Shown here in pieces: positions 4,718-21,288 of a stretch of 34,692 nucleotides of DNA. Within the stretch, counting starts at the first letter, position 1, and each line of letters starts with the position of its first letter. Source of the stretch: an uncultured Oscillospiraceae bacterium. GTDB lineage: Bacteria; Bacillota; Clostridia; Oscillospirales; Oscillospiraceae. The stretch lies in assembly GCA_947589545.1 (NCBI GenBank), contig CANQBA010000043.1, positions 1 to 34,692 of the forward strand, read 5' to 3'. The notes under the pieces are model-generated. The model was not told where the DNA came from and did not search any database. It saw only the letters and a program-made list of their open reading frames with translations. The position numbers and the translations under genes are program-made.

Positions 4718-4723
4718 TGATAG

Positions 4724-4755
4724 GCGCCGCCACTCCGGCGGGGCTTATTTTTTAC
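4724..4755 (+). terminator. intrinsic terminator after the DUF3987 gene
   Basis: CCGCC (4727-4731) pairs with GGCGG (4737-4741), with an extra GC pair outside a G-G mismatch. A TTATTTTTT tract follows. It lies 6 bases after the DUF3987 stop and closes the replication operon. The AT-rich bases 4756-4798 hold nothing else I can name. Confidence 0.75.
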
Positions 4756-4798
4756 AAATAAATAAACTCGTAATTTCTATAAAAATAAAATCACAGAA

Positions 4799-4829
4799 TT
4801 TGTAAAATCAAAATATTTACCTATATTTG
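4799..4829 (+). promoter_or_regulatory. Bacteroidota sigma-70-type promoter of the BREX-Piwi operon
   Basis: TTTG at 4799-4802 and TATATTTG at 4822-4829 are separated by exactly 19 bases, an exact fit to the Bacteroidota -33/-7 consensus (TTTG, 19-21 bases, TAnnTTTG). Transcription would begin near 4836, leaving a short leader of about 17 bases before the ATG at 4853. This and the unit at 29050-29080 are the only exact matches I found. Confidence 0.78.
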
Positions 4830-4852
4830 TCATCAGTTATAAATGGATTTTT

Positions 4853-7405
4853 ATGTTCAAGATTGTCTGGGATAGACCACATAATGGAGTGATACTCACG
4901 ATGTCATCGGCAGGAGACGCCCTCGGTATTGCACCAAGGCCAGTTTTTTACGAAGAGCTGGATCTTCTTGGGTTAAATCATATGGGCTGGGTCTATCCCC
5001 ACTCTGATGCTCCCCTTCTCTGGGCTTGTGATAGGCGTTACTTCTATTGTGGCGTGCTCGTGATGGAAGTGAAAGGCGGTAATTTGTTTGACGCCCCTGA
5101 AGTTGTTATTACGCCAGAGGGGAAGAATATCATATTAACACCTATCGACGTATACTCTCTATGCGATAAGAACTCGGATACCATGTTTCTTATCGAGCAC
5201 GAGGCAATGGAGTTCATTAATGGGACATTCAGGCAATATAAAGGAATTACGAAGGCCTCACAAATTAATCCCGATATAGATTTCCAAGCCCTCGCAGCTC
5301 GATTAGAAAAGAAAACTGGAGAGAAACAAGTAGTTGTAAAGGAGTCATGTGACAGTTTTGACATAATGCCCGAAAGTGAAGCGAATGCTCAAGGGAAAGG
5401 AGCAGTTCTAACCAACAGAATCGATTTGGTTATTGCTTCTTTCTCTGGCGGAAAAGATTCACAAGTAGTATTGGATCTTGTTAGTCGCGTCATTCCCAGC
5501 ACAGAGTTTAAGGTAATTTACTCTGATACGGGATACGAGCTTCCCTCTTCGTTGGAGCTATATGATCGCGTTAAAGATTATTACTCTGCTATCTACCCTG
5601 CGCTCGCTTTTCATAAAGCTCAGAATCACCAGCCAGTCCTCTATTATTGGGATGAAATGGATTCACCGAGCAAGATTCATCGTTGGTGTTGCTCGGTCAT
5701 GAAGACAGCTCCTTTGTATAGGCTTCTTAAGGATCTAAACGGGACTGGTCGCCAGCCTCACGTTTTAGCTTTTGAGGGTGTCCGTGCGGAAGAGAGTTCC
5801 ACTCGTTCACAGTATGCACGTATTGGTAAAGGTGTAAAGCATTCTAATGTAGTCAATGCAAGGCCCATCTTTGAATGGAATGTCACAGAAGTATGGTTAT
5901 ACATATTGTCTCATCAACTACCATTGAATGCTGCATATCGTAAGGGACTGTGTCGAGTGGGTTGTGTCATTTGTCCTCTAAGTTCAGAACTCGGAGACTG
6001 CCTTGACTATCGTCTATTCAAAGATACTGCACAGCCGTTTGTTGATAAGCTCCGTGAGAATGCAAAGAAATCGGGAATTCGGAATATTGATGAATACTTG
6101 AAGCTTCGGAAGTGGAAGGTCCGCGCCGGAGGAAATAGACACGACAATTCTTCTATGGTTCAGTATTCCAATCAAGCAACGGACTTTAGGGCTCGCATTT
6201 ACGATCCGCGCGAGAACATTCTTGAATGGCTTAAGGTGTTGGGCCCTTTCCGATACTCAAAAATTGAGAATGAGATAAAAGGTGATATCAAGTATGGCAA
6301 TCAGATATATAAGCTACAACTCACCTTCCTCACAAATGACAACAATGACGAGATTATCGACATTATTTCCTTCAACGCAGTGACTGATGTCTTTTTTGTT
6401 GGCCATTTAAAGCGTGTTCTTAACAAGGTAACATATTGTGTTCACTGCGAAGTGTGTGAAGTAGAGTGTCGTGCAGGCGCTCTTTGTGTTGTTCCCATCG
6501 TCAAAATTGATGAGAAAAAGTGTGTTCATTGTCATATGTGTCTTGATTTTAAAGATAATGGTTGCGTTACAGCAAACTCCCTTAAGCAAACAGAAGGTAG
6601 TAAAGTATACACAAATATGGAAAACAAGAAGTATCCTATCAACCGTTACAATACGTTCGGTCTGAGGGAAATGTGGCTCAAGTACTATTTCGCCAACTAT
6701 GAAACGTATTTCGAGAATGATGACCATCAGCTGAATGTTAAGAAGCAACTTCCAATTTTCAAAAAATGGATTATTGATGCCGGTGTTCTTCAATCAGGGA
6801 AAGATCTGCCGACTGAGTCGGGAAGGATGATGGCTGATAGGTATGTTGATTTCAGGCTTCCCGTCTGGGAAATACTTTGGATTAATCTCTGCAACGATAC
6901 CGATTTATGCTCTTGGTATATCTCTAACATAGACTTCATCAGGCCTTACTCTCGAGATGAAATTGATATTCTTCTTGGAGAGGCGTTCCCTCAATATACT
7001 TCAACAGTTCGAGAGAATACGATGAAAGCATTTCAAAACACACTAAAAGAGAGTCCCATCGGCAATGAGCTCCAACAAGGCGTTATTATGAAGACCGGGA
7101 ACAAAGTGTCGATTGCAAGGCATGAATATGCGGATTTATCTCTTGTTGCTGCCGCTTATTCACTCTTTAGATATGCCGAATCCAAGGAGACGAAGTCTCT
7201 AACGGTCTCCGAGTTCTATGCAGAAGGTCAAGAAGAGGGTATTTACCGCCAATTTGGCATTGAACGTCCTGTTCTTGAGCGACTCCTTCGCACATTACAA
7301 GAAGAAAGGAATCATGTCCTTAACGTACAACTCAATTTGGGCCTCGACAACATTAATTTACGTGAGGACATCTCTTCTGCCGATATTATTAAGATGATGC
7401 TTTAA
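4853..7405 (+). CDS. brxP: BrxP: PAPS-reductase-like (PP-loop) protein of type 4 BREX
   Basis: This is an 850-residue protein. Residues 1-185 are an N-terminal domain of unknown function. A PP-loop ATP pyrophosphatase/PAPS-reductase domain follows: SGGKDS at 198-203, the YSDTGYELP strand, RWCCSVMK near 277-284 and GCVICPL near 370-376. A ferredoxin-like insert has C529-x2-C532-x2-C535-x3-C539 and C557-x2-C560-x2-C563...C571, enough for two 4Fe-4S clusters. The C-terminal region (about 610-850) resembles DUF4007 proteins (LPTESGRMMADR followed by an aromatic-rich WEILWINL helix); this last match is tentative. BrxP defines type 4 BREX, which has no methyltransferase. A sulfur-transfer (phosphorothioate-like) DNA mark is inferred from similarity to DndC-type proteins. 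The gene is visibly more AT-rich than brxC-brxL, although it is first in the same operon. Confidence 0.88.
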   Translation: MFKIVWDRPHNGVILTMSSAGDALGIAPRPVFYEELDLLGLNHMGWVYPHSDAPLLWACDRRYFYCGVLVMEVKGGNLFDAPEVVITPEGKNIILTPIDVYSLCDKNSDTMFLIEHEAMEFINGTFRQYKGITKASQINPDIDFQALAARLEKKTGEKQVVVKESCDSFDIMPESEANAQGKGAVLTNRIDLVIASFSGGKDSQVVLDLVSRVIPSTEFKVIYSDTGYELPSSLELYDRVKDYYSAIYPALAFHKAQNHQPVLYYWDEMDSPSKIHRWCCSVMKTAPLYRLLKDLNGTGRQPHVLAFEGVRAEESSTRSQYARIGKGVKHSNVVNARPIFEWNVTEVWLYILSHQLPLNAAYRKGLCRVGCVICPLSSELGDCLDYRLFKDTAQPFVDKLRENAKKSGIRNIDEYLKLRKWKVRAGGNRHDNSSMVQYSNQATDFRARIYDPRENILEWLKVLGPFRYSKIENEIKGDIKYGNQIYKLQLTFLTNDNNDEIIDIISFNAVTDVFFVGHLKRVLNKVTYCVHCEVCEVECRAGALCVVPIVKIDEKKCVHCHMCLDFKDNGCVTANSLKQTEGSKVYTNMENKKYPINRYNTFGLREMWLKYYFANYETYFENDDHQLNVKKQLPIFKKWIIDAGVLQSGKDLPTESGRMMADRYVDFRLPVWEILWINLCNDTDLCSWYISNIDFIRPYSRDEIDILLGEAFPQYTSTVRENTMKAFQNTLKESPIGNELQQGVIMKTGNKVSIARHEYADLSLVAAAYSLFRYAESKETKSLTVSEFYAEGQEEGIYRQFGIERPVLERLLRTLQEERNHVLNVQLNLGLDNINLREDISSADIIKMML

Positions 7406-7425
7406 TCACCCAGATACACGAAACT

Positions 7426-10400
7426 ATGGCACGTTATTCAGATTATATCCAAATGCAGGATTACCTGCCGGTATATGACATTACCGCAGATTCCAGCAAC
7501 AATCTCTGGGCATCCTTCATACCCACACACCAATTTTGCGACCTGCTTCAGCGTACGCTTACGGCAGTCTCCTCCGCCGACAAATCCAAGCGCAAAAGCA
7601 TTTGGGTTCAGGGCACCTTCGGAACCGGTAAATCCCACGCCAGTTCCGTCGTCCGGCATCTGCTCTGCGACAGTTTCGGTGACATTGAGTTCTATACCAA
7701 GAAGATCGAGGACGCCAGTCTGCGCAACCAGCTCGTCAACTACCGCAAGAACAAGCATTTCTTCTCTGTGGTCATCAAGGGTATCGAGAGCGCATACGAT
7801 CTGCGCCGCTTCTCCCTCTCTCTCCAGCGAGAAGTAAAGAACGCCCTGGTGGCAGCCGGTCATGGTAATATCGTGGTGAAGTCTGATTTTGAAAGTGCCA
7901 TTCAGTATGTCAAGGACCACGACAGTTACACCCAGGACGCCATCAATAAGCACGATGAACTGCATGACATCGCCCCTACTCCGGAGAGGGTAATCGCTCG
8001 TCTTGAAGCCAACGACATCCAGACCTATATGGAGCTGGAGGAAGCGCTCTACAACACCGTGGGCGTCACCCTCACATCGAAGAGCGTCAGCGAGTGGCTT
8101 GCCGAGGTTGAAAAGGCCATCGAGGACGAAGGAATTGCTGACGGTCTCATTATCTTCTGGGATGAGTTTACCTCCATCATGGAGGCCATCGGCAGTGATC
8201 GTATCAACGTCCTGCAGAACATCGCCGAGAAGGCACAGAGCTGCAATCTCTTCCTGTTCCTGATTTCTCACCGCGTAGAAGACCAGGTGGCCAGCGGTAG
8301 CAAGAAAGACGATGTTCGCACGATGAATGACCGCTTCGACACCATTCGCTATATGATGGACGAAGTTTCCACTTATCGTGTGATGCGCCATACGTTCGAA
8401 ATCAAGTCCGATAAGGTGGGTTATGACCAGCTTCGTTACAATCGTACCGTCCGTCTCAACGAACTCATCGATTATCTTTGCGAGGGCGGCGTTGAAGAAG
8501 AACGTTCAGGCATCTCTAACCTATTCCCAATGCATCCGTACAGCGCATTCCTGTGCTCCAAACTGTCTGATTACGTCGGCTCTGCGAACCGTTCTGTCGT
8601 CAACTTTATGAATGACGAGAAGAAAGGTTTCCGCAAATTCATTGCAGACGAGTATGTGTACGAACAGCGCTCACTACTTACAGCGGAATGGCTCTGGGAC
8701 TTCTTCTTCGAGAGTTTCCTCGCAAATCCCCAGTGTGGAGCGTTCACATCTAACTTCCAGAATCATATCCACCGGGTAGAGGAAGCCGGAGACGACTATG
8801 TGCGCGTATATAAAGGAATCCTCCTGCTCAATACCCTATCCACTCAGTTCGCAACTAAAAGCACTGATGTGATTGCTCGCATCTCTCCTAACGAGAAGAG
8901 CATTCGTGGACTATTCGCTGATGACCGCCTGGAGCCCAAGATGGATGACATCCTGCGCTTCTTGGACACCAACCAGATCATTGCCCGCGATGTCTTTGGC
9001 GAGTTTAAGATTTCTGTCAGCTCCCTCAATCCGGCAGAACTGCGAAAGGAAGAGGAAAAAGTTGCGGCTCAGTTCAAGTCGGCTCTTGATTTCCTCAACT
9101 ATAACTTTGCAGTTAAGGCGAATCTCACCAAATTGTTCGTGGTCGGAGACTACCTGATTCGCAAGTGCGAGCCACAGCTCTTCTCCTGCTCCGACCCGGA
9201 GCCGGTGCTGCGTAGCCGTCTGAACAAATACACCAATGAAAAGCCGAATACGCTCCATGTTGCCATTTACCTGGCTGTGACAGAGGAAGAACGCCGGGCT
9301 GTCGAGAATCGAGTAAAGGACTTCTCCTCCGAATTCCTGAACTCCATCCATATCATCCCGACGGAGGTGTTTACCAACGAATCACGATCGAAGTTTATCA
9401 GTCTGCTCGCGAGCCATAATGTCGCCAAGAGCCATTATCAGGAGTCCATTGAAAAGGAGAGTGACCTGGCTGCCAAACAGTTGGTGAATAAGTGGGGCAA
9501 TCGCCTTATCAATGGTTCTTTCACTCTTTATTTCAATGGAGAGCAGACCAGCGAGGGCATCATCGGAAACATATACTCGCTTATCAATAAGAAATTCAGC
9601 CACAGGGTATTCACCAAGGGTATGGAGTCGGTCAAGGCATACCGAGGTATAACTAACACATTCCTCGCTAACAAGAACTTCCCTGCCCTGGTACTCCAGA
9701 TGCTCCAGTCTCAGACCCGCGACAAACTTACCAAGTTCAGTGGCTCTGATATGCCGGCAAAATACATCTTCGAGGAAAACGACAATCACCTCATTGATGA
9801 AGAATGCCGTCTGACCCCTGCTGCCATTGCTAATGGCTCGTGGATTGCCCAGGTATGCAACGAGGTTGACGAGTGCATCGAGGCCGCCAAGAAAAAATAT
9901 GTGGACAAGTTCTCGCTCTCCGAGGTGTTTGCTCCACTGATGCGCCCTCCGTTCGGATTCTTCCCTAGCCGCGCCAACTGGGTAGCCTTCTCCTATGCAA
10001 TGCGCAAGCACAAGGCAGACCTATTTGTCACGACCATTTCACAGCCGATTTCGGACGAGAAGCTGGCCGATATGATTAAGGACCTCTTCGTAATGTGGAA
10101 CGACGGTCATTCTGAGTCCAACAACAAACTGATGCTCCGTTTCGGTTCCAAAGAGGAGAGCGAACTGACGCAGTTACTGTACGAGGTCTTCCAGCTGCAG
10201 TTTATCAAGGATATTCCGGAGGTAAAGAGCCTTAGCAACGTCCGCTGGGGTATCAACGAGTTCTGTATGCAGAAGTCCCGTTACCCGCTTTGGGTACTCA
10301 CCTACTGCGACAATATTAATGAAAAGCGAGCAGAAATCATCAAACTTCTTATCGAAGTGCTGGAGGCGGATCAAAATCCCGATATTGCCAAGATTAAGAA

Positions 10401-10899
10401 TCTCTACCGCCTTGTCAACAGCGAGAAGGTCGACATAGCCCAGTTAGTCTCGAGCCCGAAGAACTACGAAAACGGTTTTATGAACTTCATCAGCTCCATC
10501 AAGACCGTGAAAATTCAGCGAGACTGGTGGGACGAGCTGCTTGAAGAGATTTCGCACCTTCAGTCCGAGGTTGCTTTCCGCAAGGAATCCGATGTGCGTG
10601 AATGCGTGCTCAACTTCTACATTATGAAGCGGGATCAAATGAATCCGGCTCCTGCACCGCAGCAGTCTCCGTCATCTCCTTCAGGAACTTCGACACAGCC
10701 TGCCAACACGCCTACTTCGACGTTCTTTACGCCTTCTGCACCTGCTGCGCCAAAGCCTGTCAGCCCGGATGCAGTTAAGAAGGCCAAGACACTTGTCAAA
10801 GAAGCCAATATGCCCGGCGTTCTCTGGCAGAAAGTTGTCCTTGATATCATCGATAATAACCCGGAAGTGGCCGAATTCATTTCCAACTATCTATCGTAA
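7426..10899 (+). CDS. brxC: BrxC/PglY-type BREX ATPase
   Basis: This is a 1157-residue protein, close to the usual length of about 1200 for BrxC. The N-terminal P-loop is G63-TFGTGKS-70, with a Walker-B-like LIIFWDEFTS near residues 241-250, giving a STAND/AAA-like NTPase module. Long helical regions follow. A Pro/Ser/Thr-rich linker at about 1072-1115 leads to a small C-terminal helical domain of about 45 residues. BrxC is a core component of all BREX types, works with PglZ, and is required for phage exclusion. The gene begins 20 bases after brxP and ends 3 bases before pglZ, so it is translated within the same operon. The family call is strong from the P-loop, the size and the gene order brxP-brxC-pglZ-brxL. 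Confidence 0.88.
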   Translation: MARYSDYIQMQDYLPVYDITADSSNNLWASFIPTHQFCDLLQRTLTAVSSADKSKRKSIWVQGTFGTGKSHASSVVRHLLCDSFGDIEFYTKKIEDASLRNQLVNYRKNKHFFSVVIKGIESAYDLRRFSLSLQREVKNALVAAGHGNIVVKSDFESAIQYVKDHDSYTQDAINKHDELHDIAPTPERVIARLEANDIQTYMELEEALYNTVGVTLTSKSVSEWLAEVEKAIEDEGIADGLIIFWDEFTSIMEAIGSDRINVLQNIAEKAQSCNLFLFLISHRVEDQVASGSKKDDVRTMNDRFDTIRYMMDEVSTYRVMRHTFEIKSDKVGYDQLRYNRTVRLNELIDYLCEGGVEEERSGISNLFPMHPYSAFLCSKLSDYVGSANRSVVNFMNDEKKGFRKFIADEYVYEQRSLLTAEWLWDFFFESFLANPQCGAFTSNFQNHIHRVEEAGDDYVRVYKGILLLNTLSTQFATKSTDVIARISPNEKSIRGLFADDRLEPKMDDILRFLDTNQIIARDVFGEFKISVSSLNPAELRKEEEKVAAQFKSALDFLNYNFAVKANLTKLFVVGDYLIRKCEPQLFSCSDPEPVLRSRLNKYTNEKPNTLHVAIYLAVTEEERRAVENRVKDFSSEFLNSIHIIPTEVFTNESRSKFISLLASHNVAKSHYQESIEKESDLAAKQLVNKWGNRLINGSFTLYFNGEQTSEGIIGNIYSLINKKFSHRVFTKGMESVKAYRGITNTFLANKNFPALVLQMLQSQTRDKLTKFSGSDMPAKYIFEENDNHLIDEECRLTPAAIANGSWIAQVCNEVDECIEAAKKKYVDKFSLSEVFAPLMRPPFGFFPSRANWVAFSYAMRKHKADLFVTTISQPISDEKLADMIKDLFVMWNDGHSESNNKLMLRFGSKEESELTQLLYEVFQLQFIKDIPEVKSLSNVRWGINEFCMQKSRYPLWVLTYCDNINEKRAEIIKLLIEVLEADQNPDIAKIKNLYRLVNSEKVDIAQLVSSPKNYENGFMNFISSIKTVKIQRDWWDELLEEISHLQSEVAFRKESDVRECVLNFYIMKRDQMNPAPAPQQSPSSPSGTSTQPANTPTSTFFTPSAPAAPKPVSPDAVKKAKTLVKEANMPGVLWQKVVLDIIDNNPEVAEFISNYLS

Positions 10900-10902
10900 G
10901 CT

Positions 10903-13335
10903 ATGGATGCAACAGAGAAAATCATTCAGTTTGAGTCCTATGATGACCTACTGACGGAGATTAAGCGGGACATGGAGGATGGTGACCCCCTCCGTTGCCG
11001 CTACCCCGTCCGCTTCATCATGCTCAACAACTTCAACGTCTTCACGCGCTTTGCCCAGGACCTTGCGTTCCTTGGCGTTCAAGCGCTGAATCTGGAAGAG
11101 TTGTTACCCGCTGACTATCCCGATGGATGGCTTACAACAGACGACCTTAAGACGGCCTTCAAATCGTGCAAAGACCTCACGCTTGTTACCCCCTTCTCGG
11201 AGTTGGTCCGTTTCTACAGTGATTCGGACTTTAGAGGTTTCTTCAATGATATTATGCTCATTGAAGATATTGATCATCCTCATAAGCGTATTTATGTGCC
11301 CTTAATCGGCCTTCAAAACCGTTTCAGCAACTATTTGAATGGCTTTGCTCGCATCGAAGAAAGCGCTCCTGTATGGGCCTATCTGGAGGAAGAGCACAAG
11401 ACCGAAGTGTTCCTTACCCAAATCAAGAATGCAACCAACGCATTCGCCCAAAAGAGCAAAATCGTATGTCTGAACACTGTCTATGATTGGCTTCGCTTCT
11501 GGAAGAATCAAGCCCCTCAGACGCAGATCATCTGTTCTTCCAGTCCGATATATCGCCGAAATAAGTATTCCGTTCCTGACAACATTTTCACCTTCAAGTA
11601 TGTAGAGAATGCGCACGAATACATCGAGTCGTTCTTAGGAATCACTATCCCCTTCCCCTACGAGAAACAGGAGGAGAAATACTGGTCCCAGCTGTTGCAA
11701 GACATTCTCAAGACTGGCCTCGCAGCCTTCGGTTTCAATTCGTTCGTGTGCAGCCGTTTTAACTTTGTCCATCTGGAACCGAGAGACATCTTTATCCAGT
11801 GGGTGCAGACGGAAACGACGGAATATGACCGTTGGTTGATGAAGAATTATTTCCTCTCCTGCGACTCCGCAGAGAAGTACCCTTACCTCAAGGTTTGCTT
11901 CAATGAGGTTTCCGAGTATGGAATGCTTCGCGAGCTTCCCACGAAGGTTGCCGAACGTATTTTCTACTTCAGCGAGCCTTCGACACAGATGGGTTACGCT
12001 GCTGAGCGTGAACACCTCATTAAGAATTCCCTGAATGTCATCTGCGAATTTGTTGCTCCGGAGACAAGGGACTATATTAAGAATCGTATTGCTGAGATTG
12101 AGCAAAACAATACTCAGCTTGCGATTGCACTCTGCACGGGAGCCTTTGATTTCGAGAAGGTACTCATCACCGCTTGGTATGCCGACAAGGATCGCACGGG
12201 TCTTACATTGGAGAAGGCGGCCGAGAAATACCCTGCTCTGGGTATGTTTCTTGCCGATCCCAACACTACGGTCAAAGCCGAGGACAACTGGCACATCGAG
12301 TACTTGAAGGAGTACCGCAATGCTAAACTCGCTGATGAATACACAGAGGGTATCAAGGCCTTCATTAGCGAAAAGAACCACGACGGAGATTCCTTCTACG
12401 GATGGTATCACTCGTTTGAGGAATCACACAACCGCCTCGCTCAGCATCTGTCTTCCGATGAATACCGACCAGATAAGATCTATTGGATAGACGCCCTGGG
12501 GTACGAGTTCCTCCCCTACATCCTTTCATTGATTGAAGATAGTGGTGTTAACTACCGGGTTCTCCATTCGGAGGTTACACGCTGCACGATTCCTTCAGCG
12601 ACCGCTCAGAACCGCTTCGACGATGTCATCAAATTCGGCGAGTTAGATGCTCTGGCCCACGACAGCGTTGGCTATAAGAAGAATGCAACGCTGGTCAAGG
12701 AACTCCAGGTCCTTCAGTCGAAGATAATGGACATTATCACCAGCAATGCTTACGGTGAGCACACCATTGCCATTGTTTCTGACCACGGCTTGAGCTGCCT
12801 TTCTCGCAAGCTCGATTCTTTGAAATATGATGCGAAGGTGAAGCACGATGGACGCTACATCAAAGTCGCAACAGATGGTAAACTATACCATGATGCCGAT
12901 TATGTCGTTCACACCAACGAGAACGATGGAGAACGTTATAAAGTCGCCCTTAGCCACGCTTCATTGGGTCGCAAGCCGGTCCACGAGGTACACGGTGGTT
13001 GTACGCCCGAAGAGGTGCTGGTTCCGTATATCATTATCACGAACAAGAAACAGAATCTTGTCCGCTACAATTACACGCTGCTCACCAAGGAAATCGAAGT
13101 TTCCAACCCGACCATCACTGTCAATGTGATGCCGCAGCCATCGACAGTCAGGCTGCACATCAATGGTCAGGACTTCAAGATGATCCGTGCTGGCAGTAAA
13201 TGGAGTGCTCTTGTCAATGGCCTGGACGAGGGAGAATACAAGGCCGAATTCACCATACCTGGTGGAACATCATTCAATGCAACAATCAAGGTTATCGGCA
13301 CCGGTTTCGGTGGGAATGACTTCTTAGACTTTTAG
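10903..13335 (+). CDS. pglZ: PglZ, alkaline-phosphatase-superfamily BREX protein
   Basis: This is an 810-residue protein. The N-terminal 500 residues are mostly helical. The PglZ domain shows metal-binding landmarks of the alkaline phosphatase superfamily: Y-W-I-D530-A-L-G, then SEVTRCTIPSAT (threonine/serine nucleophile region), then V-S-D627-H628-G629. The family hallmark VHEVHGGCTPEEVLVPY follows near residues 692-706. The last 90 residues look like a beta-sandwich (Ig-like) tail. PglZ is the BREX signature protein; a phosphodiesterase or phosphatase activity on DNA or a partner is assumed from the fold. It lies 3 bases after brxC and 3 bases before brxL. All metal-ligand regions appear intact, so the protein should be functional. 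Confidence 0.92.
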   Translation: MDATEKIIQFESYDDLLTEIKRDMEDGDPLRCRYPVRFIMLNNFNVFTRFAQDLAFLGVQALNLEELLPADYPDGWLTTDDLKTAFKSCKDLTLVTPFSELVRFYSDSDFRGFFNDIMLIEDIDHPHKRIYVPLIGLQNRFSNYLNGFARIEESAPVWAYLEEEHKTEVFLTQIKNATNAFAQKSKIVCLNTVYDWLRFWKNQAPQTQIICSSSPIYRRNKYSVPDNIFTFKYVENAHEYIESFLGITIPFPYEKQEEKYWSQLLQDILKTGLAAFGFNSFVCSRFNFVHLEPRDIFIQWVQTETTEYDRWLMKNYFLSCDSAEKYPYLKVCFNEVSEYGMLRELPTKVAERIFYFSEPSTQMGYAAEREHLIKNSLNVICEFVAPETRDYIKNRIAEIEQNNTQLAIALCTGAFDFEKVLITAWYADKDRTGLTLEKAAEKYPALGMFLADPNTTVKAEDNWHIEYLKEYRNAKLADEYTEGIKAFISEKNHDGDSFYGWYHSFEESHNRLAQHLSSDEYRPDKIYWIDALGYEFLPYILSLIEDSGVNYRVLHSEVTRCTIPSATAQNRFDDVIKFGELDALAHDSVGYKKNATLVKELQVLQSKIMDIITSNAYGEHTIAIVSDHGLSCLSRKLDSLKYDAKVKHDGRYIKVATDGKLYHDADYVVHTNENDGERYKVALSHASLGRKPVHEVHGGCTPEEVLVPYIIITNKKQNLVRYNYTLLTKEIEVSNPTITVNVMPQPSTVRLHINGQDFKMIRAGSKWSALVNGLDEGEYKAEFTIPGGTSFNATIKVIGTGFGGNDFLDF

Positions 13336-13338
13336 CAC

Positions 13339-14772
13339 ATGAGCGAATTAGGACAAAAAATCAGAACAGTATTCGGCTCTGCGGCCATACTGAAGAACCC
13401 CCAGAATTACGACGTCTTCCTGGGTCGGAACCTCCCCTCCTTTGTGAAGGACTTCCTGATCTCGCAATACGCCAAGCCGGATGGAACGCTTCGCAAGCAG
13501 GACCTTGCCCGTTATCTGGACGAGCATATACCCAGCAACAACAACGCTGTAAAGGCGCGTCTGCGCAACGGAGAGACGCTTACGTTGCTGACCCGATTCA
13601 TCGTTACTACGAACCTTATCGCCAATAAGGTACAGTTCCAGATTCCCGACATGGGCATCAAGCAGAACGAGACGCTCATCCCGCCGTACCTTGTGGAGAA
13701 ATACCCTGCCGACCTGATTGATGGCGAGAAATGGGGCCTTCTGAAGGTGGTTTATATGCCGCCGGATGAAGATGGCCCCGGCCACGTAGAGCTCGTCGAT
13801 TTCAAGCCATTCAAGCCTCTCCAGAAGCTTGATTTGAACCTGTATCGCAAGTTCCGCACAGAGTTCTCGACCGAAGAATGGATTGACGTTATCATTTCGG
13901 CGATGGAGTATAATCCTGCATCCTTCGTCAGCATGACGCAGAAGCTTGAGTTTATTTCCCGTCTCCTCCCCTTCATCGAGCCCCGTCTCAATATGGTCGA
14001 GTTAGCTCCTAAGGGAACCGGTAAGTCATACGTCTTCGGCAATCTCAGCAAGTACTCCTGGCTGGTCAGTGGCGGTGCCGTCTCTCGCGCCAAACTCTTC
14101 TTCGACAAAGCACGGCGCACTCCTGGTATTATGCACGACCACGACCTGGTGTCCTTCGATGAGATTCAGAGTATCACTTTTACCGATCCGCTGGAAATGC
14201 GGGCCATCCTGAAGGGCTACCTCGAGTACGGGAAGGCCACCGTGGACAACTATGAGTTTATGTCCGAGTGCGGTCTTATGCTCCTGGGTAACATCGAGCT
14301 GACCTCCGAGGGTTTCCCTCGCAGTGACCGCTACTTTGATGAACTCCCTGGCGTCTTCCACGAATCTGCTCTCCTCGACCGTTTCCACGGCTTCATCGAG
14401 GGCTGGCTCCTCCCGCGTATGAACAACGATATGATTCTGCGCGACTGGACCATCAACGTGGAATTCTTCTCTGAGGTGATGCATAAACTCCGTGTTGCCC
14501 CGGAATACGCCGAGCTGGTAAACAATGCCATCCAGGTGCCCGCAAAGGCCGATACGCGCCATTTGAACGCTGTCAAGCGTATTGCTACCGCATACTGCAA
14601 ACTCCTTTTCCCGCATCTGACTAGCGCAGACCAAATCGACAAGGCAGAGTTCGATAGATTCTGCTTACAGCCTGCAATCCATCGTCGTGACCAGGTCCGT
14701 CAGCAGTGCGCAAACATCGATAACGAGAGTTCCTTCTCGAAGCCGATGCCCGACATTCGCGTAAAGTTATAG
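13339..14772 (+). CDS. brxL: BrxL-type AAA+ ATPase, short form lacking a Lon-like domain
   Basis: This is a 477-residue protein. An N-terminal DNA-binding-like region (1-200) precedes an AAA+ core: ELAPKG226-TGKS230 Walker A, VSFDEIQ Walker B at about 271-277, GGAVSRAKLFFD between them, and sensor/arginine-finger-like LLDRFHGFIEGW. This is the characteristic BrxL core. Longer BrxL proteins (about 680 residues in type 1) carry an additional C-terminal Lon-protease-like part. Here the protein ends soon after the AAA+ lid (about residue 470) with no Ser-Lys dyad region visible. A DNA-translocating or helicase-like ring role remains plausible. It starts 3 bases after pglZ; the next start is 4 bases after its stop. 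Confidence 0.85.
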   Translation: MSELGQKIRTVFGSAAILKNPQNYDVFLGRNLPSFVKDFLISQYAKPDGTLRKQDLARYLDEHIPSNNNAVKARLRNGETLTLLTRFIVTTNLIANKVQFQIPDMGIKQNETLIPPYLVEKYPADLIDGEKWGLLKVVYMPPDEDGPGHVELVDFKPFKPLQKLDLNLYRKFRTEFSTEEWIDVIISAMEYNPASFVSMTQKLEFISRLLPFIEPRLNMVELAPKGTGKSYVFGNLSKYSWLVSGGAVSRAKLFFDKARRTPGIMHDHDLVSFDEIQSITFTDPLEMRAILKGYLEYGKATVDNYEFMSECGLMLLGNIELTSEGFPRSDRYFDELPGVFHESALLDRFHGFIEGWLLPRMNNDMILRDWTINVEFFSEVMHKLRVAPEYAELVNNAIQVPAKADTRHLNAVKRIATAYCKLLFPHLTSADQIDKAEFDRFCLQPAIHRRDQVRQQCANIDNESSFSKPMPDIRVKL

Positions 14773-14776
14773 AGTT

Positions 14777-17626
14777 ATGGAAAGAGCAGAGGAATACAGT
14801 TTTCGTAACGACGTATACACGACCCTAATCAGGTTTTCGAATTACAAGGCCTCCGGTTTTCTCGCCGGAGAACGTAAGTCATGCCCGAGCGACAGTGTAT
14901 TCTTCTATATGCTCTTGACATCCAGTGACGAGCTACTGGGTAAGGCATACCGTAAAGGAAAGATGATTGCGCTCTATACGGAGCAGTTCCTGAATGCATA
15001 CAAGAAGGTTGTCAACGACGAACTCGCCTACTATGTATACCGGCACCAGGACGAGTTGTCTACTCTTACAGATCCACTCTTTAAGGATATGGGGTCTATT
15101 GGCACTCGCTTTACCAACGTCTTCAATAAGTATTGGCGGGATAAATGCTCACGCTCGGTGAGAATCCTCTATTACCGGACACTGATCACTGACCCCTCAG
15201 CTCCAAAATTCGACGGGATTGGATTGGAGCCATCTCGTTTGATGTACGAGAAGATACTATCCTTCAAGGCTTCTGTTGACGACTATCTTAAGCAATACAC
15301 AGAAGATAATGTTTCTGAGCCAGTGGTCGTCGAAGCAGAACCGGGAATAGCCACTCCGGAGCCCATTGCCGAACCGGTTATTACTACGGAGCCGGAGTCC
15401 ACAGTTGAAATACAGAATGAGGTAGAAGCGCCATCTAAACCCGATGGATTTGACACCACTCAGCCCGGTAATGTCCCCTTCTTGAACTATATCTACGACA
15501 ATATCGTAACGAAGGAGTATCCAGCCTCGGCCATCCTCCTCAGCGTTCTTCGTAGTAGAACGGAATACGCGGGCATCTTCTACGAGAAGGTACTGGATAT
15601 GGACCTGCCTAAGGCCCGGAAGGAACTGGGAATAGGCGAAGTATCCGCCAAGGAAGTGAAGAAATTGTGCGATATGATGCGCACCATCGTTCAGCATCCC
15701 GGCTCAAAGCATGTCTTTGAAGAAAGTGAGAAGGCGGCCCTCTTCGCTCCACGCATTGAGAAACTGATGGCCACGGAACATATCCGGACATACCATTCTT
15801 ACAAGAAGTTTATGGAGTCCTGCAATAACTCGGTCCTTGACTTCTACTTGAAGATCGTTGGTATGCCTCATACAGCCGTAAAATTCCCCGGGTTGAATCC
15901 TTCTAAGTCGCAGGCTCTTCTCAACGTATTCTTAAACGTCCTTCCGCAGATTGACGCCTTCCTCGCTGGAGCAAAAACTGCCCCGGCGGTGATGTACAAC
16001 AGTCAGCTCCACAAACTCAATCTGACTGATGTGCAGCGTGACGACATTGTAAACCGCACAGAGCGATGCGGCCACTTCCCGCTGTTCACAGCCATATATT
16101 ATTTGATGTCTCAGATGGACGAGCGGAAGCTGAAGATTGCAAGAAAGGGACTCAATACAGTTTACGGACAATCCGTCCAGGACCTCAACGAATTAGCCCA
16201 ATCGCTGGGGATCTCACGCGAAAGAGTTCGGCAACTGCGCGATGACTGCCTGGACGACCTTCTTTCTTATCCGAAGAAGATATTCCGCGCCGGTCTCCTG
16301 GATGAGTATATGTATGCCGTCCAGTCAGAATACGATTTCAAGCATATCCGCACCGAGGAGGGTGTCGAATTCAGCAACGAATACATCACCGTTTGCATTG
16401 CCATTTCCAATCCGGATTTACACCTAATTGGGGACTACAGGAAGTCGCTTCTTAAGACATCTGGAGCGGTACGCCGTCTATACCTTGTCCCTTCCAAGCT
16501 TCACAACATATTTGATTTCAATAAGTTTATCGTCTCGGTAGAAGACATGCTGAACGAAAAGCGGTTCTATCCATACCGTGACGATCTTGAGACCTTCGTC
16601 CGTGGCCAGATCAAGAAGTCTATCACGGAGGAAGATTTCTACGACATCATCAAAGAGTGTAGGCAGATCCTCCAGAAAGGCTATCCCGACAACATCATCA
16701 ACAGCCAGATATACTTCCCGGCTAACGCTCGAAAGACAATCCCCAATCTCATTGAAGACATCCTTCGAGAGTTCAATCGTCCGATGACCGCTGAAGAAAT
16801 CTGCGCACAGTTGAATGAGCGCTATCCCGACCTCGAGCAGATACCTTCCAAGATTGGCCCCAACGCACTTCGCAACAGCAATATCGTTGCCGTTAGCCGA
16901 AGCAGCACGTATGCCCTGGCGGAATGGAATTTCACCGAGAAACGTGGTGGCACCATCCGTGACATCGTGGAAGAATACCTCAATAGCCTGATTGAACCTA
17001 TCGCCACCCTCTCCGATATTTGCGAACACGTCGCAAAGTTCCGCGACAATGTTAAGGAGAGCAGCATCAAATCCAATCTCCTTGCAGAGTCATCCAACAA
17101 GTTCAGGCTATACTACAAGAACGGAGAGATGTACATCGGCTACTCCGATTACACCTTCGATGAATCATTTGAGGTACAGGAAAAACGTCAGGGTCGCCGC
17201 AGCTTCAAAGATAGCGTTGCCCTCCTGGAGAAGTTCATTCAGGAGAACCAACGCTTCCCCTACACTTCCGGAGTTACCCCGGAGGAAATACGCCTGAGCC
17301 GATTCCTGGCCGTCTGCAAGTCCAACATCCGTAAAGGCCTGCTCGAACCAGATGAACAAGCCGCTATCGAAAGAATCGAAACAGAATACGAGCAATACAA
17401 GGGCAAGAAAGAACGTGTTGCAAAGGAAGACGCTGTCCCGTGGATGGATCGCCTGGAGAGTTTCGCAACATACATCACCATCAATGAGGATCTCCCTCCG
17501 GACGCTTCCGAAGAATCCCTCTGGTACAAAGAGAACAAGGCCCTGTACGACAGTGGCCAGCTACCCACCGACAAGCGTATCGCCTTTACGACCCTTGTCA
17601 AAATAGTTGACCGAATGACGAAATAA
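14777..17626 (+). CDS. 949-aa multi-domain predicted DNA-binding protein in the BREX-Piwi operon
   Basis: I do not recognise the whole protein. Residues 1-170 are a unique helical region. A Pro/Glu/Val-rich linker follows at about 180-235 and a helical region at 235-450. Residues about 470-492 are a textbook sigma-70 region-4-type HTH (LNELAQSLGISRERVRQLR). At about 650-720 and 725-790 there are two winged-helix-like blocks (one with MTAEEICAQLN, the other TLSDICEHV). At about 800-945 there are two repeats resembling the helicase-associated (HA) DNA-binding domain. No catalytic motif is seen. It starts 4 bases after brxL and ends 10 bases before the Piwi gene, so it is co-translated with both. 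Because type 4 BREX lacks PglX, it could be the DNA-recognition component; that is inference. A dedicated transcription factor is the main alternative. Confidence 0.75.
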   Translation: MERAEEYSFRNDVYTTLIRFSNYKASGFLAGERKSCPSDSVFFYMLLTSSDELLGKAYRKGKMIALYTEQFLNAYKKVVNDELAYYVYRHQDELSTLTDPLFKDMGSIGTRFTNVFNKYWRDKCSRSVRILYYRTLITDPSAPKFDGIGLEPSRLMYEKILSFKASVDDYLKQYTEDNVSEPVVVEAEPGIATPEPIAEPVITTEPESTVEIQNEVEAPSKPDGFDTTQPGNVPFLNYIYDNIVTKEYPASAILLSVLRSRTEYAGIFYEKVLDMDLPKARKELGIGEVSAKEVKKLCDMMRTIVQHPGSKHVFEESEKAALFAPRIEKLMATEHIRTYHSYKKFMESCNNSVLDFYLKIVGMPHTAVKFPGLNPSKSQALLNVFLNVLPQIDAFLAGAKTAPAVMYNSQLHKLNLTDVQRDDIVNRTERCGHFPLFTAIYYLMSQMDERKLKIARKGLNTVYGQSVQDLNELAQSLGISRERVRQLRDDCLDDLLSYPKKIFRAGLLDEYMYAVQSEYDFKHIRTEEGVEFSNEYITVCIAISNPDLHLIGDYRKSLLKTSGAVRRLYLVPSKLHNIFDFNKFIVSVEDMLNEKRFYPYRDDLETFVRGQIKKSITEEDFYDIIKECRQILQKGYPDNIINSQIYFPANARKTIPNLIEDILREFNRPMTAEEICAQLNERYPDLEQIPSKIGPNALRNSNIVAVSRSSTYALAEWNFTEKRGGTIRDIVEEYLNSLIEPIATLSDICEHVAKFRDNVKESSIKSNLLAESSNKFRLYYKNGEMYIGYSDYTFDESFEVQEKRQGRRSFKDSVALLEKFIQENQRFPYTSGVTPEEIRLSRFLAVCKSNIRKGLLEPDEQAAIERIETEYEQYKGKKERVAKEDAVPWMDRLESFATYITINEDLPPDASEESLWYKENKALYDSGQLPTDKRIAFTTLVKIVDRMTK

Positions 17627-17636
17627 CCCCCAGTCG

Positions 17637-19805
17637 ATGATTGAAACTAACCTCATACCCTTCACCTTCGCCAAAGACGAACTTGAACTCAGCCTGGTCG
17701 TTCATACCGATAAACGTCCGGGCAAGGAGCACTATAAGCCTTTGATGAAAGAGGAGTTCCCCGAAACATTATTGAAGGGTAATGAGAAGCGTCTCAAGAA
17801 GATTGAGCGGTTGTACACCAATTTTGGCGAACCTGACAAGGTCGATTTCAAAACAACTATCAAGCTGTCTGAGCAGCCGATGTTTTCGCTGCATTATGCA
17901 CGCCACATTCTTCGCCACTATTTTGAGACCATCCCCAATGCCATAGTTTCCAGCGACTTTGTTCGTGACATTTCTGTATGGCTTCCGGCAAAAGATCAGA
18001 ACGATTCTCGTTTCAAGGTTTATTTTGACTTCAAGGTCAAGGTACAGTATGGCCACATGACGGAAGGTCCCGAGCTGATTGTTACCTACAACGGCATATC
18101 GCGTGTGCTGAGTCAGTCTGTTTCAAGCTTGATTAGTATCGACCCTTCACATTTCTCGTCGGTGGTCTATGAGGGGCATACATATCGTTATGATGATAAG
18201 GAAGCACCATTCCAAAACAATCCCGCTGAAGCATATCCGGTCGTTAACAAAGACCTTGAAGATGACTTTGAATTGCCCTTGACGGAGCGCCCTCAGGATA
18301 ATAAGTATGCCCGAGTCGACAAGATGGTATCTGGATTCTGTAAGAGGTATCTCTTCGGAGGGAAGCTGGACAATTCCATCATCATTAAGCGAGGGAACGG
18401 ATTCTATACACTACCCGACGACAAGGTCAAGATGCTCCCAAAAGGGGCATCAGACCTCCTTTTTACCGACAAAAATGGCAATATCAAAGTAGAGCAGGAT
18501 ATTGTTCAGGGATTCAAGAACATCGGTCCCTATGCCAAGGCCGATATTGAGGGCCTAAAGATTTTCTTCATCTACCAGAAGGATTCCGGAGAAGCGGCAA
18601 GAGATTTCCTGCTCAATGCTCTGCAGAATGGAGCGATAGACGCTTCTTTTGTCAATCAATTTGGGAAGACGGTAAACTATACCAAGATACGCTCACTCGC
18701 AAGAGCCATAAAGCATACCTTCACGTATGATACCGATGGAGACGTGGAGTTTACAAGTTTGGAAACTGCGATTTCAGAAGTCGAAGCCAAACTGATGCAA
18801 AAGACAATAGATCCTCATTTCACTTACCTGGCCTTCTACGTCAGCCCTATCAGCAAGGAGAGCTGGAGTAGCCAATACCGGCAGGTAGTTTATGCGGGTA
18901 TCAAAGAACAGTGCATCCGACATTTCGTGACCGTGCAGGGGTTCTTCCAAGACCGTATCAACGATGGAGATGGTCTCGCCTATTCCTTCACTAATATCCA
19001 TACTGCTATCCTGGGCAAAATCGGCGGTATTCCCTGGAAGATTAAGACCGAAACGCCCGAGGACCTGATCATAGGCGTGGGCGCATTCTACTCAAGGAAG
19101 AAAGACAAACGGTACCTTGGCAGCGCTTTTTGCTTCGACGGAACAGGCATTATGAAGGAGTTCTCCTGTATACAGGAAAAAGACCGTGACGACCTTGTAG
19201 CCAAGATCAAAAAGGCCCTTGAAGGCTTCCTTGAGAATATGGGCGGCGTCCTTCCCCGTCGCATCATCATCCACTTCTACAAGGAGATGAGCAAACGAGA
19301 CTGGGAACCTATCTTTGATATGCTGACTAACTTTGGCGTTGAAGAAATACCAGTTATCGTTGTCACTATCGGCAAGAACGAATCAAAGGACATCCTCGGC
19401 ATCAAGCGTGACTGTAACGACCTGATGCCCCTTGCCGGCACATACTTCAAAGTCGGCGGACAAACATGGCTTCTTTACAACAACTCGAAAACCAATCAGA
19501 AAGCGTGGGACGAGATGGTAGCAAGGAAGACGAAAAGCCACTCTGAAGCAAAAATTCCATACCATTTTCCTATCAAGGTTAGATTCGATTGCCGCAATGC
19601 TGATGTCCTTAATGATGAAGCAACAATCGAGGACCTTCTTAAGCATATCTTTCAGCTCTCTCGTATGTACTGGAAGTCGGTTGACCAGCAGAATATCCCA
19701 ATCACCATCAGGTACCCCTCGCTATTAACCGAGTTTTTGCCCTACTTCCGTTACGAAGAAATTCCGAATCCTGAGTTTGGTTGCAAAACCCTCTGGTTCC
19801 TATAA
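17637..19805 (+). CDS. prokaryotic Argonaute (Piwi-domain protein), predicted catalytically dead
   Basis: This is a 722-residue protein. Residues 1-320 would cover N/linker (and perhaps reduced PAZ) regions. The MID domain at about 330-460 keeps the guide 5'-phosphate set Y419-x3-K423-x10-Q434 and K461, the last within KIGGIPWK. The 4- and 11-residue steps match those of known long Argonautes. The PIWI domain follows: LIIGVG482 where active enzymes have an Asp (IGxD), RRIIIHFYKEM where the second Asp would lie (usual RDG), and a C-terminal IRYPSLLTEFLPYF. At least two of the four catalytic positions are therefore lost, giving a guide-binding, non-slicing protein. Length suits a long-B-type pAgo. 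It lies 10 bases after the 949-aa gene in the BREX operon, which is unusual. Confidence 0.88.
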   Translation: MIETNLIPFTFAKDELELSLVVHTDKRPGKEHYKPLMKEEFPETLLKGNEKRLKKIERLYTNFGEPDKVDFKTTIKLSEQPMFSLHYARHILRHYFETIPNAIVSSDFVRDISVWLPAKDQNDSRFKVYFDFKVKVQYGHMTEGPELIVTYNGISRVLSQSVSSLISIDPSHFSSVVYEGHTYRYDDKEAPFQNNPAEAYPVVNKDLEDDFELPLTERPQDNKYARVDKMVSGFCKRYLFGGKLDNSIIIKRGNGFYTLPDDKVKMLPKGASDLLFTDKNGNIKVEQDIVQGFKNIGPYAKADIEGLKIFFIYQKDSGEAARDFLLNALQNGAIDASFVNQFGKTVNYTKIRSLARAIKHTFTYDTDGDVEFTSLETAISEVEAKLMQKTIDPHFTYLAFYVSPISKESWSSQYRQVVYAGIKEQCIRHFVTVQGFFQDRINDGDGLAYSFTNIHTAILGKIGGIPWKIKTETPEDLIIGVGAFYSRKKDKRYLGSAFCFDGTGIMKEFSCIQEKDRDDLVAKIKKALEGFLENMGGVLPRRIIIHFYKEMSKRDWEPIFDMLTNFGVEEIPVIVVTIGKNESKDILGIKRDCNDLMPLAGTYFKVGGQTWLLYNNSKTNQKAWDEMVARKTKSHSEAKIPYHFPIKVRFDCRNADVLNDEATIEDLLKHIFQLSRMYWKSVDQQNIPITIRYPSLLTEFLPYFRYEEIPNPEFGCKTLWFL

Positions 19806-19813
19806 CGCCAATT

Positions 19814-19841
19814 CGCCAATTCCGCCAGTGGCGGTTTTGGC
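19814..19841. repeat. hairpin leader and motif copy 2
   Basis: GCCAA-TT-CCGCC-AGT-GGCGG-TT-TTGGC (19815-19841) folds into a two-part stem with symmetrical TT/TT internal loop. AAAAAAG follows, not a T-run, so it is not a standard + strand terminator. It fills the 53-base gap between the Piwi stop and the next start. Bases 19814-19833 match 3351-3370 at 19 of 20 positions. It may reduce expression of the downstream gene, protect mRNA, or mark an insertion edge. Confidence 0.55.
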
Positions 19842-19858
19842 AAAAAAGATAATCAGCA

Positions 19859-21067
19859 ATGACGAAACTCAACGACATACTCTACGCTAGAGATAGATTG
19901 GCTCTGGAAGATCCTTATGCAGAAGCCTTCCGCTTCATTCGTGATAAAATTCTGCTTGGTGCGACGAATGAGGAGATAATGGACGACTTCCGTGTTCTCC
20001 ATTGTACAATTCCAGAAGTATATAGTGTTTCGCGAGGTTGTGGATTGACATTCGAAGTGCTTGAACGGTTTCGGTCTGGCATTGAGTTGGATTCGGTGTT
20101 CACTGTTACAATGGAAGGTGAGAGTACATCACAGAAACCGTACACGGCACAGTTCGTTACTGTAAAGAAGACTCCAGATGCACATAGCACGGTGCCCTCG
20201 GCATCTACACCAGCTCCCTTGCAGAAGAGCAAAAAAGATATATTGCCCGCTTTTCGACTCGTTAGACAGCGCCTTTCTGAGGGCTGGTCATATGATCAGA
20301 TAATCGACGAATTCGTGCAGCTCGAAGCATCAGGCCATAAAGAGTATCGGAGTAAACAAGGCAGGCCAATCACAAAGGCCATTTTGAGTCATTGGGCAAA
20401 AGAACTCGGGTACGACGTAAGGCCAGGCGGCAAAGCCAAGGACAACCTTGATAAGTGGAAAGATACTAGCGAAGGTTATCAGTGGTTTAAGGCCCAGGTC
20501 CTTGCTGGCGTTGCTCCGGAGGCAATCATAGAGGAGTTTAACAAACGTCACGTCACTAATCCGCAGTCATATTCAACCCCGCTGGGTGCTGGCATGACCG
20601 TCTCCACTTATAACCGCTGGCGCAAAGAAATCGTAACCGCGCACGATGATGTTGGAGCCTCCAAGCCAATCTCATTGACAGGTACGCCCTCTACTAAAAC
20701 CCCAGTCACAATATCGTCATCGCCAATCACCACAACGATGGACGACTTCTACCGCCAAAGAGGGATGTTCAGGGTTTTGGAATGGGCTCGCCTTCAAGGC
20801 TGGTGGAATGCGTGGAAGAAGAACTTCAAATCTTCATCAGATGTGCCTGTTAACGAATTTATCGATGGCCTGAAATCACCGGCAAATCTCATCGCCAGTG
20901 CGTTCCATTGGAGTCTAACTGAAGAAGGCCGCAATTACTGGACAGACGCGGAAGAAAGCCTGAAGAATCATATTAAGTCCGATGTCCGAGCTGTTATATA
21001 CGCCATCAAGCGACAAGTCACAAGAGACACGCCATATACTATAACAAAAGAACATTTTTCCTACTGA
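19859..21067 (+). CDS. 402-aa unknown protein with three HTH-like repeats
   Basis: I do not recognise the family. The N-terminal two-thirds contain three divergent copies of a unit of about 55-60 residues. They lie at about 18-75 (FRFIRDKILLGATNEEIMDDF), 128-188 (FRLVRQRLSEGWSYDQIIDEF) and 198-258 (WFKAQVLAGVAPEAIIEEF). Each continues into a Y-S or Y-R-x3-G-x-x-[IL]-T turn and a second helix, ending W-[AR]-K-E in copies 2 and 3. The pattern (helix, 'G-x-S/T-x-x-x-I', acidic-aromatic, helix) resembles repeated HTH modules. A Ser/Thr/Pro linker (about 265-290) leads to a C-terminal helical domain with paired Trp residues. It lies 53 bases after the Piwi gene, separated by a hairpin. A DNA-binding accessory role is inferred. 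Confidence 0.7.
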   Translation: MTKLNDILYARDRLALEDPYAEAFRFIRDKILLGATNEEIMDDFRVLHCTIPEVYSVSRGCGLTFEVLERFRSGIELDSVFTVTMEGESTSQKPYTAQFVTVKKTPDAHSTVPSASTPAPLQKSKKDILPAFRLVRQRLSEGWSYDQIIDEFVQLEASGHKEYRSKQGRPITKAILSHWAKELGYDVRPGGKAKDNLDKWKDTSEGYQWFKAQVLAGVAPEAIIEEFNKRHVTNPQSYSTPLGAGMTVSTYNRWRKEIVTAHDDVGASKPISLTGTPSTKTPVTISSSPITTTMDDFYRQRGMFRVLEWARLQGWWNAWKKNFKSSSDVPVNEFIDGLKSPANLIASAFHWSLTEEGRNYWTDAEESLKNHIKSDVRAVIYAIKRQVTRDTPYTITKEHFSY

Positions 21068-21288
21068 CTGGTTACGGTCAAGACATTTATGACGATGACA
21101 TCTCTCTCGACATCCTATGCGACGAGATGGGGCTCAAAGTATCAACAGAAGCCCAAAAGAATAGTTTCAAATTCAGTTTATCACCTATTCGCCCTTGAAC
21201 AGGCCAGAAAACGCAAAAAAAGCCGCACTGGTCGGAGCAGAAATAAATGAGCAATTCAATATACCGGTCAAGATAAAACGTATGTCAT
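21068..21288 (+). pseudogene. possible frameshifted remnant of a small gene
   Basis: Two protein-like stretches lie in different frames. Bases 21067-21197 read TGYGQDIYDDDISLDILCDE and continue to a stop at 21195-21197. Bases 21195-21302 read LNRPENAKKAALVGAEINEQ and continue to a stop at 21300-21302, overlapping the SIR2 start. A single frameshift near 21190 would join them into one polypeptide of about 80 residues or more ending just inside the next gene, a normal operon spacing. There is no good start codon, and I recognise no family. The alternative is plain non-coding spacer. Confidence 0.3.

Follow-up and report, generated by a model that had tools for sequence, protein, structure and literature searches.

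A long Argonaute without catalytic residues closes an apparent type 4 BREX operon and recurs beside varied defence systems

Does an Argonaute encoded directly behind a type 4 bacteriophage exclusion (BREX) gene set serve that system, or does it travel with defence systems of many kinds? The question is raised by a contig of 34,692 nucleotides (CANQBA010000043.1 of assembly GCA_947589545.1, hereafter the window), in which four BREX genes, a gene for a 949-residue protein and an Argonaute gene, in that order, form one apparent (predicted) operon. The first-pass annotation read this arrangement as guided or guide-assisted BREX. The pairing in a single apparent operon stands, while the inference of guided BREX largely fails. 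We favour, with about even confidence, the view that the window carries a Bacteroidales integrative defence element, in which a constant core and a catalytically dead Argonaute are combined with a swappable cassette, the Argonaute providing a second, or back-up, layer of recognition.

A type 4 BREX operon ending in an Argonaute gene

Six open reading frames (ORFs) between positions 4853 and 19805 were verified at the coordinates first given for them, each running from ATG to stop. The spacing of 20, 3, 3, 4 and 10 bases from brxP through to the Piwi gene was likewise confirmed. The genes and the signals that flank them are as follows.

4799 to 4829, plus strand: Bacteroidota-type promoter match before brxP
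4853 to 7405, plus strand: brxP, 850 residues with a 3'-phosphoadenosine-5'-phosphosulfate (PAPS)-reductase domain (PADLOC BrxP 822 bits; PF01507 116.9 bits)
7426 to 10899, plus strand: brxC, 1157 residues, P-loop GTFGTGKS (PADLOC BrxC 459 bits)
10903 to 13335, plus strand: pglZ, type 4, 810 residues (PADLOC PglZ 268 bits; NCBIfam BREX-4 PglZ model NF033445 585.8 bits, cut-off 140)
13339 to 14772, plus strand: brxL, 477 residues (PADLOC BrxL 658 bits; PF13337 and PF20442)
14777 to 17626, plus strand: 949-residue DNA-binding-type protein (no PADLOC match at 0.01)
17637 to 19805, plus strand: long prokaryotic Argonaute without catalytic residues, 722 residues, MID-PIWI at about 417 to 722 (PADLOC pAgo PDLC02385 592 bits; PF02171 39.2 bits)
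19815 to 19841, plus strand: stable hairpin directly 3' of the Argonaute gene (-18.2 kcal/mol, z -3.24)

The profile matches, above all that of PglZ to NF033445, bear out the earlier assignment of the first four genes to the type 4 BREX set, and PglX, which had been described as lacking, found no PADLOC match in a scan of ten proteins from the operon and its surroundings. Its absence is expected, since type 4 BREX is described as a phosphorothioate system in the available text of PMC12839542, where a cysteine desulfurase is reported in 56% of taxa; no cysteine desulfurase was matched among the proteins scanned here. BrxP contains the sequence SFSGGKDS, a cysteine-rich ferredoxin-like stretch and a DUF4007-like C-terminus (PF13182 22.9 bits, below the cut-off of 27).

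The single consensus promoter originally proposed for the operon fares differently depending on the consensus applied. An Escherichia coli-type sigma-70 scan of positions 4000 to 20500 gave 21 sites against 18 ± 4 in shuffled sequences and was no better than chance, which leaves the 9/12 match at 4800 with little weight. The same place does, nevertheless, match exactly TTTG-N(17-21)-TANNTTTG, which we take to be the Bacteroidota promoter motif; exact matches to it number two in the window against 0.38 expected, one of which precedes brxP. At the other end, the hairpin, which is followed by A's and has no U tract, recurs as a similar sequence in the relative described below and is a possible transcript end.

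Origin of the contig

The window is a complete 34.7 kb contig of a 3.8 Mb assembly. Its G+C content is 48%, compared with 59-65% at the rpoB loci of the assembly, whose RpoB has as best PDB matches 7l7b and 8i23, presumably clostridial RNA polymerases. The sole relative found in the genome collection lies in RUG13332, a metagenome assembly from Bacteroidia. Given the clostridial-looking RpoB, the G+C mismatch and this single relative, the contig is probably Bacteroidales DNA that was mis-binned into a clostridial assembly, recent transfer being the alternative. Shine-Dalgarno sequences, as judged by eye, are not obvious at the gene starts in the window, and a 16S ribosomal RNA gene was not found in the assembly. 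The order and phylum of the assembly itself were rejected as a search neighbourhood on account of the clostridial RpoB and the G+C mismatch, and the search was re-centred on RUG13332; searches around the assembly were kept solely for a comparison of type 4 BREX in the presumed phylum, Bacillota.

RUG13332 has the same genes in the same order as the window, with protein identities of 98% (DUF3987), 99% (BrxC), 98% (PglZ), 100% (BrxL), 98% (949-residue protein) and 94% (Argonaute). By contrast BrxP is only 58% identical, although its neighbours, DUF3987 and BrxC, are at 98-99%. The alignment of the two BrxP proteins (RUG13332 locus L122; loci and genomes are given by our L and G handles) is a mosaic, with ends that are 93-100% identical and a middle mostly at 25-65%, and in several middle segments the BrxP of the window is nearer to that of a third locus, L152, than the RUG13332 protein is. 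This pattern resembles an exchange of alleles and points to the middle of BrxP as the seat of specificity. The pglZ gene of RUG13332 (L007, 3227-5699) is split in two overlapping frames, through either an error in sequencing or damage to the gene.

The Argonaute family recurs beside varied defence systems

An Argonaute model was searched against 393 genomes of the order to which RUG13332 belongs, and the neighbourhoods were fetched and annotated. Matches were obtained in 34 genomes at E <= 1e-10 and in 20 above 500 bits, of which L091 and L106 have too little flank, leaving 18 assessable loci. Among the 20, contig ends truncate G1068 and G987, while G1049 carries an internal stop; shorter or remoter matches (L110-L121, L123 and L124) were left out of the counts. 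System labels derive from PADLOC for representatives and from sequence clusters for the remaining loci. A restriction-modification, BREX or Druantia-like system lies near the Argonaute in 17 of the 18 loci (13 upstream on the same strand, three downstream within 1 kb, one on the opposite strand, and one locus with none), distributed as follows.

Type I upstream, same strand: L092, L093, L095, L096, L099, L105, L109
Type III upstream, same strand: L094, L097, L101
Druantia-like helicase and methyltransferase upstream, same strand: L098
Other BREX (PglZ, BrxL) upstream, same strand: L107, with an opposite-strand gene between
Type 4 BREX upstream, same strand: RUG13332, the only one among the 18 loci
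System downstream within 1 kb of the Argonaute: L103, L104, L108
System on the opposite strand: L102
No system seen: L100, where 168 bases separate the end of the Argonaute and the contig edge

Counting neighbours had been the check proposed for the link to BREX. For the Piwi gene the count goes against it, with type 4 BREX at one of 18 loci and other systems at 16. In L092, L096 and L105 the Argonaute gene begins 4-29 bases behind a type I restriction gene, and apart from the Argonaute no gene cluster is common to all loci.

The association was compared with 18 control windows of 19.9 kb taken from 11 of the same contigs, windows sharing a contig not being independent. The same marker scan found a defence system in none of the 18, and PADLOC at 1e-20, applied to all 100 control ORFs with 380 or more residues, revealed one type III restriction enzyme that the markers had missed. 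The resulting contrast, 17/18 loci against 1/18 windows that are partly non-independent, gives a Fisher p of 7e-8, and a hypothetical 6/18 in the controls would still contrast with 17/18 (p 3e-4). PADLOC, whose alignment mode does not place control matches in individual windows, returned ten further kinds of match (mad3 in four proteins; PbeA, DolB, CARF, PDC and others singly), which we regard as generic or other defence folds.

Beyond the count, the IMG/VR contig L189 carries the end of a type III restriction enzyme, a helicase and a small gene, followed by the Argonaute. A scan of viral contigs with the single window Argonaute gave no relative, and in plasmids the same query returned three weak matches only (19-22% identity) and the L097 Argonaute none at 1e-20. 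In L097, L098 and L101 a protein of about 500 residues is encoded one or two genes upstream of the Argonaute, the L097 copy having deaminase-like and HATPase_c_4 regions. L121, L123 and L124 contain short C-terminal pieces of the Argonaute, in L121 adjoining an mnmE-like gene, as if lost elements had left their right end behind.

A constant core with exchangeable cargo

PrimPol/DUF3987 core genes are present in 12 of the 18 loci, often accompanied by helix-turn-helix (HTH) genes and by an integrase family that occurs in eight loci (identified by Pfam on one representative). The set comes after an mnmE gene in L093 (Pfam) and L097 (cluster). The window shows the order of the related Argonaute loci upstream of brxP, namely HTH, HTH, PrimPol and DUF3987, and its genes outside the operon that belong to the stretch conserved with RUG13332 or to the core are listed here.

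11 to 1018, plus strand: 335-residue element-core protein, related to a 520-residue L096 protein (cluster c3, present in nine loci)
1251 to 1619, plus strand: HTH_17 protein with relatives in Argonaute loci (PF12728 41.4 bits)
1616 to 1996, plus strand: HTH_17 protein (PF12728 32.9 bits)
1983 to 2957, plus strand: core protein with PrimPol/BT4734-like N-terminal domain (PF08800 69.9 bits; PADLOC PrimPol 79.8 bits)
2954 to 4717, plus strand: PriCT_2 and DUF3987 core protein (PF13148 192 bits; PF08707 55 bits)
19859 to 21067, plus strand: 402-residue protein, 90% identical in RUG13332, which closes the conserved stretch

The match between the window and RUG13332 stops at 21140. The 335-residue protein has no Pfam match above the cut-off, and its family comes after the integrase in related loci; as the contig starts at the copy in the window, the integrase would lie beyond the contig. 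Further downstream, AbiH and Abi_2 genes (22347-23201 and 28090-29010) extend the stretch of defence genes as in a defence island.

The clearest view of exchange is offered by L097 and L099, which are 85% identical in core DNA and 87% in Argonaute DNA (93% in Argonaute protein). L097 carries a type III system and L099 a type I system, and blastn on the same strand finds nothing shared by the two cargoes. With similar core and Argonaute but unrelated cargo in the two loci, the Argonaute and core look fixed and the defence cassette exchangeable.

Type 4 BREX without an Argonaute

The converse comparison asks how type 4 BREX occurs elsewhere. PglZ of type 4 was found in five of 247 genomes of the order, RUG13332 among them. 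By handle number the other four belong to the 393 genomes searched with the Argonaute model, and none of them is among the matches. In their fetched loci neither a relative of the 949-residue protein nor an Argonaute was seen, and one locus stops immediately downstream of brxL. The flanks of L153 and L040, which extend less than 300 and about 370 bases beyond brxL, say little, and no brxL was seen in L050, L051 and L056. The Bacillota sample yielded 16 BrxP loci in 15 genomes (14 in which BrxP scores over 600 bits, plus G577, where the frame is split); by tblastn these loci have neither the Argonaute nor the 949-residue protein, and in none of the 15 genomes did the Argonaute model find a match at 1e-20, a threshold reached in that sample by just two genomes besides the assembly of the window. 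A BREX-4 locus on a Methanosphaera plasmid has no adjacent annotated Argonaute. In L151 (12076-14941) the type 4 BREX operon is followed by PrimPol/VirE-like and UG39-type reverse transcriptase genes. A dedicated unit of Argonaute and type 4 BREX is thus not supported by these genomic comparisons.

Lost catalysis and a retained guide pocket in the Argonaute

Two of the four catalytic positions were inspected in the Argonaute alignment. The motifs are replaced by G-V/I-G-A and H-F/Y/L-Y-K in 17 of the 18 aligned rows, L110 having other non-acidic residues. Conversely, the residues that we take to form a YK-type pocket for the guide 5'-phosphate are largely retained across the 18 rows: Y419 is Tyr in 16 and Phe in two, K423 and Q434 are each conserved in 17, and K461 in all 18. 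The family profile matched the solved chains of AfAgo (1.9e-33), EcAgo (2e-26) and what are presumably RsAgo chains (8e-22 to 9e-22), whereas for the N-terminal part, the first 180-270 profile positions, no solved chain was matched at 0.01. Most members end in NLWFL or a near variant. No nuclease, Sir2 or membrane effector was detected next to the Argonaute by PADLOC in the neighbouring 949- and 402-residue proteins, a scan that did not include membrane-segment prediction. These features fit a protein that would bind guides without cleaving targets, a function we infer from the sequence. Structure predictions of the Argonaute and of the 949-residue protein had a mean pLDDT (predicted local distance difference test score) of 32 each and gave no usable model.

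The 949-residue protein

Relatives of the 949-residue protein occur in 21 of 247 genomes of the order at E <= 1e-15, and plasmid, phage and viral-contig searches with it gave none. The neighbour count for this gene gives a mixed answer. Apart from L114 and RUG13332, 16 relatives were fetched, of which at least nine, proteins of about 490-520 residues, adjoin ribosomal, epimerase or redox genes (by eye), while one close relative stands with DndD/DndH-like genes. That relative, in L155 (760 residues, 183 bits, the closest after L114), contains RNA_pol_A_CTD, Sigma70_r4 and helicase-associated (HA-like) segments and heads a same-strand row (L155, 2791-9891) with a DndD/PbeC-like ATPase, a DndH/HerA-like protein and a further protein, possibly a phosphorothioate-linked system. 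Some kilobases away from the L156 relative are SoFic- and PDC-S15-like genes, and the genome concerned, G785, also encodes a type 4 PglZ on a different contig; the L114 relative has a fragment of an Argonaute within a few kilobases. Six genomes (G687, G713, G761, G845, G903 and G904) have both a relative and an Argonaute-model match, mostly on separate contigs. The family is mostly chromosomal, and in our reading the 949-residue member was recruited from it as a DNA-binding protein and is, given the DndD/DndH-like neighbours in L155, possibly tied to phosphorothioate systems.

Weighing the possible roles of the Argonaute

In the model that we favour the constant part of the element is the HTH/PrimPol/DUF3987 core together with the catalytically inactive long Argonaute, and the cassette, here type 4 BREX with the 949-residue protein, would be swapped between or beside the constant parts. 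The BREX genes are predicted, following the available text of PMC12839542, to modify host DNA by phosphorothioation and to exclude unmodified phage. The Argonaute would bind a 5'-phosphorylated guide and the complementary invader strand without cutting, and our best guess is that it lends any docked cassette a second, or back-up, layer of recognition. Because its relatives are found with other systems, the Argonaute probably does not rely on BREX chemistry. Several observations weigh against this model. L100 shows no cassette, albeit close to a contig edge; in three loci the system comes after the Argonaute; the upstream cargo of L103 is a prokaryotic viperin; and core genes are unseen in 6/18 loci, some of which are truncated by the fetched stretch. 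A search for element-end direct repeats of at least 12 bases in limited stretches of eight loci gave one low-complexity 12-mer only, and type 4 BREX with the Argonaute is one lineage, seen twice. The markers, moreover, were derived from the Argonaute loci and are insensitive, having missed the restriction genes of L189 as well as the control type III enzyme, and to count the ten remaining kinds of control match as defence would weaken the contrast.

The tight same-strand spacing in the window, and the 94-100% identity of five of the six operon genes in RUG13332, would suit a dedicated unit in which a guide-loaded Argonaute, perhaps with the 949-residue protein, directs or assists type 4 BREX; the L155 row adds a hint for the 949-residue protein, not for the Argonaute. 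That the Argonaute family lies mostly beside other systems, and that type 4 BREX occurs without it in four other genomes of the order and in the Bacillota sample, makes such a unit improbable. Equally improbable, in our view, is ordinary hitchhiking in a defence island with no functional link. Argonautes have long been known beside nuclease and defence genes (PMC2743648 and PMC6299218, in their available text), and AbiH and Abi_2 genes lie downstream in the window, but hitchhiking sits poorly with the contrast to the control windows, with the short gaps and with the retention of the Argonaute when cargo is swapped.

Two further explanations were weighed. The Argonaute may serve maintenance of the element by excluding competing copies or plasmids, the cassette being separate passenger cargo. 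The fixed core and Argonaute with swapped cargo, the core and Argonaute of L100 with no cargo seen, and an inactive long-B Argonaute system that reacts to a plasmid origin (PMC10620215, available text) are all consistent with this explanation; the close coupling of the Argonaute to type I genes in L092, L096 and L105 and the six loci with no core seen argue against it, and we regard it as unlikely. A little less likely still is a general adaptor, which would tag or retain unmodified or restricted DNA for any nuclease that happens to be docked. Such a role would accord with a modification-based system near 17 of the 18 assessable loci and with an Argonaute that has neither catalytic residues nor a constant partner gene, whereas the neighbouring systems share no protein and the viperin of L103 does not fit.

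In the boldest reading, the dead Argonaute could be a universal plug-in for modification-based immunity, fixed in a mobile element and supplying guide-based recognition to any restriction-modification or BREX cassette that docks, with cassettes exchanged beside it. We offer this as a speculative proposal with a rather small chance of being correct. Inactive long Argonautes are so far known mostly from pairings with a single dedicated effector gene; a family that travels instead with many different restriction-modification and BREX cassettes would unite sequence-guided and modification-based immunity in a new manner. The idea is directly testable, as natural pairs exist in which nearly the same Argonaute accompanies different cargo.

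Comparison with known systems

The first-pass annotation knew of no description of the combination found here, and neither a pairing of type 4 BREX with an Argonaute nor this type of element is described in the literature searched, which lay mostly outside subscription journals and excluded all preprints; the words 'argonaute' and 'piwi' do not occur in the main text of the 2026 BREX survey in Nucleic Acids Research (PMC12839542). The operon resembles type 4 BREX, as presented in the available text of that survey, in its four core genes ordered on one strand, its PAPS-reductase BrxP with a DUF4007-like end and its lack of a PglX match, and differs by the trailing 949-residue protein and Argonaute.

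The Argonaute resembles inactive long-B Argonautes (PMC6299218 and PMC10620215, available text) in being a long protein with lost catalytic residues and a retained MID pocket, a likeness drawn from motifs, length (722 residues) and profile matches. According to the available text of PMC10620215, inactive long Argonautes act via dedicated effectors; the recurrent neighbours in the present family are, by contrast, whole restriction-modification or BREX systems, with no effector partner found by PADLOC. In this it also differs from BPAN, BPAS and BPAM, which are defined by an adjacent nuclease, Sir2 or membrane effector. AfAgo of Archaeoglobus fulgidus, the best solved match, has G-x-G-A at the same aligned place in a chain of 427 residues, to which the window Argonaute family adds an N-terminal part.

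With respect to genomic context, Makarova 2009 (PMC2743648) and Ryazansky 2018 (PMC6299218), in the text available, connect inactive Argonautes to nucleases encoded in the same operons and show Argonautes beside nuclease and defence genes. The latter lists HsdS among the proteins in Argonaute operons and, in that text, gives no defined operon composition per Argonaute group save for one CRISPR-linked group, whereas the family described here is a single Argonaute family with a recurrent element context.

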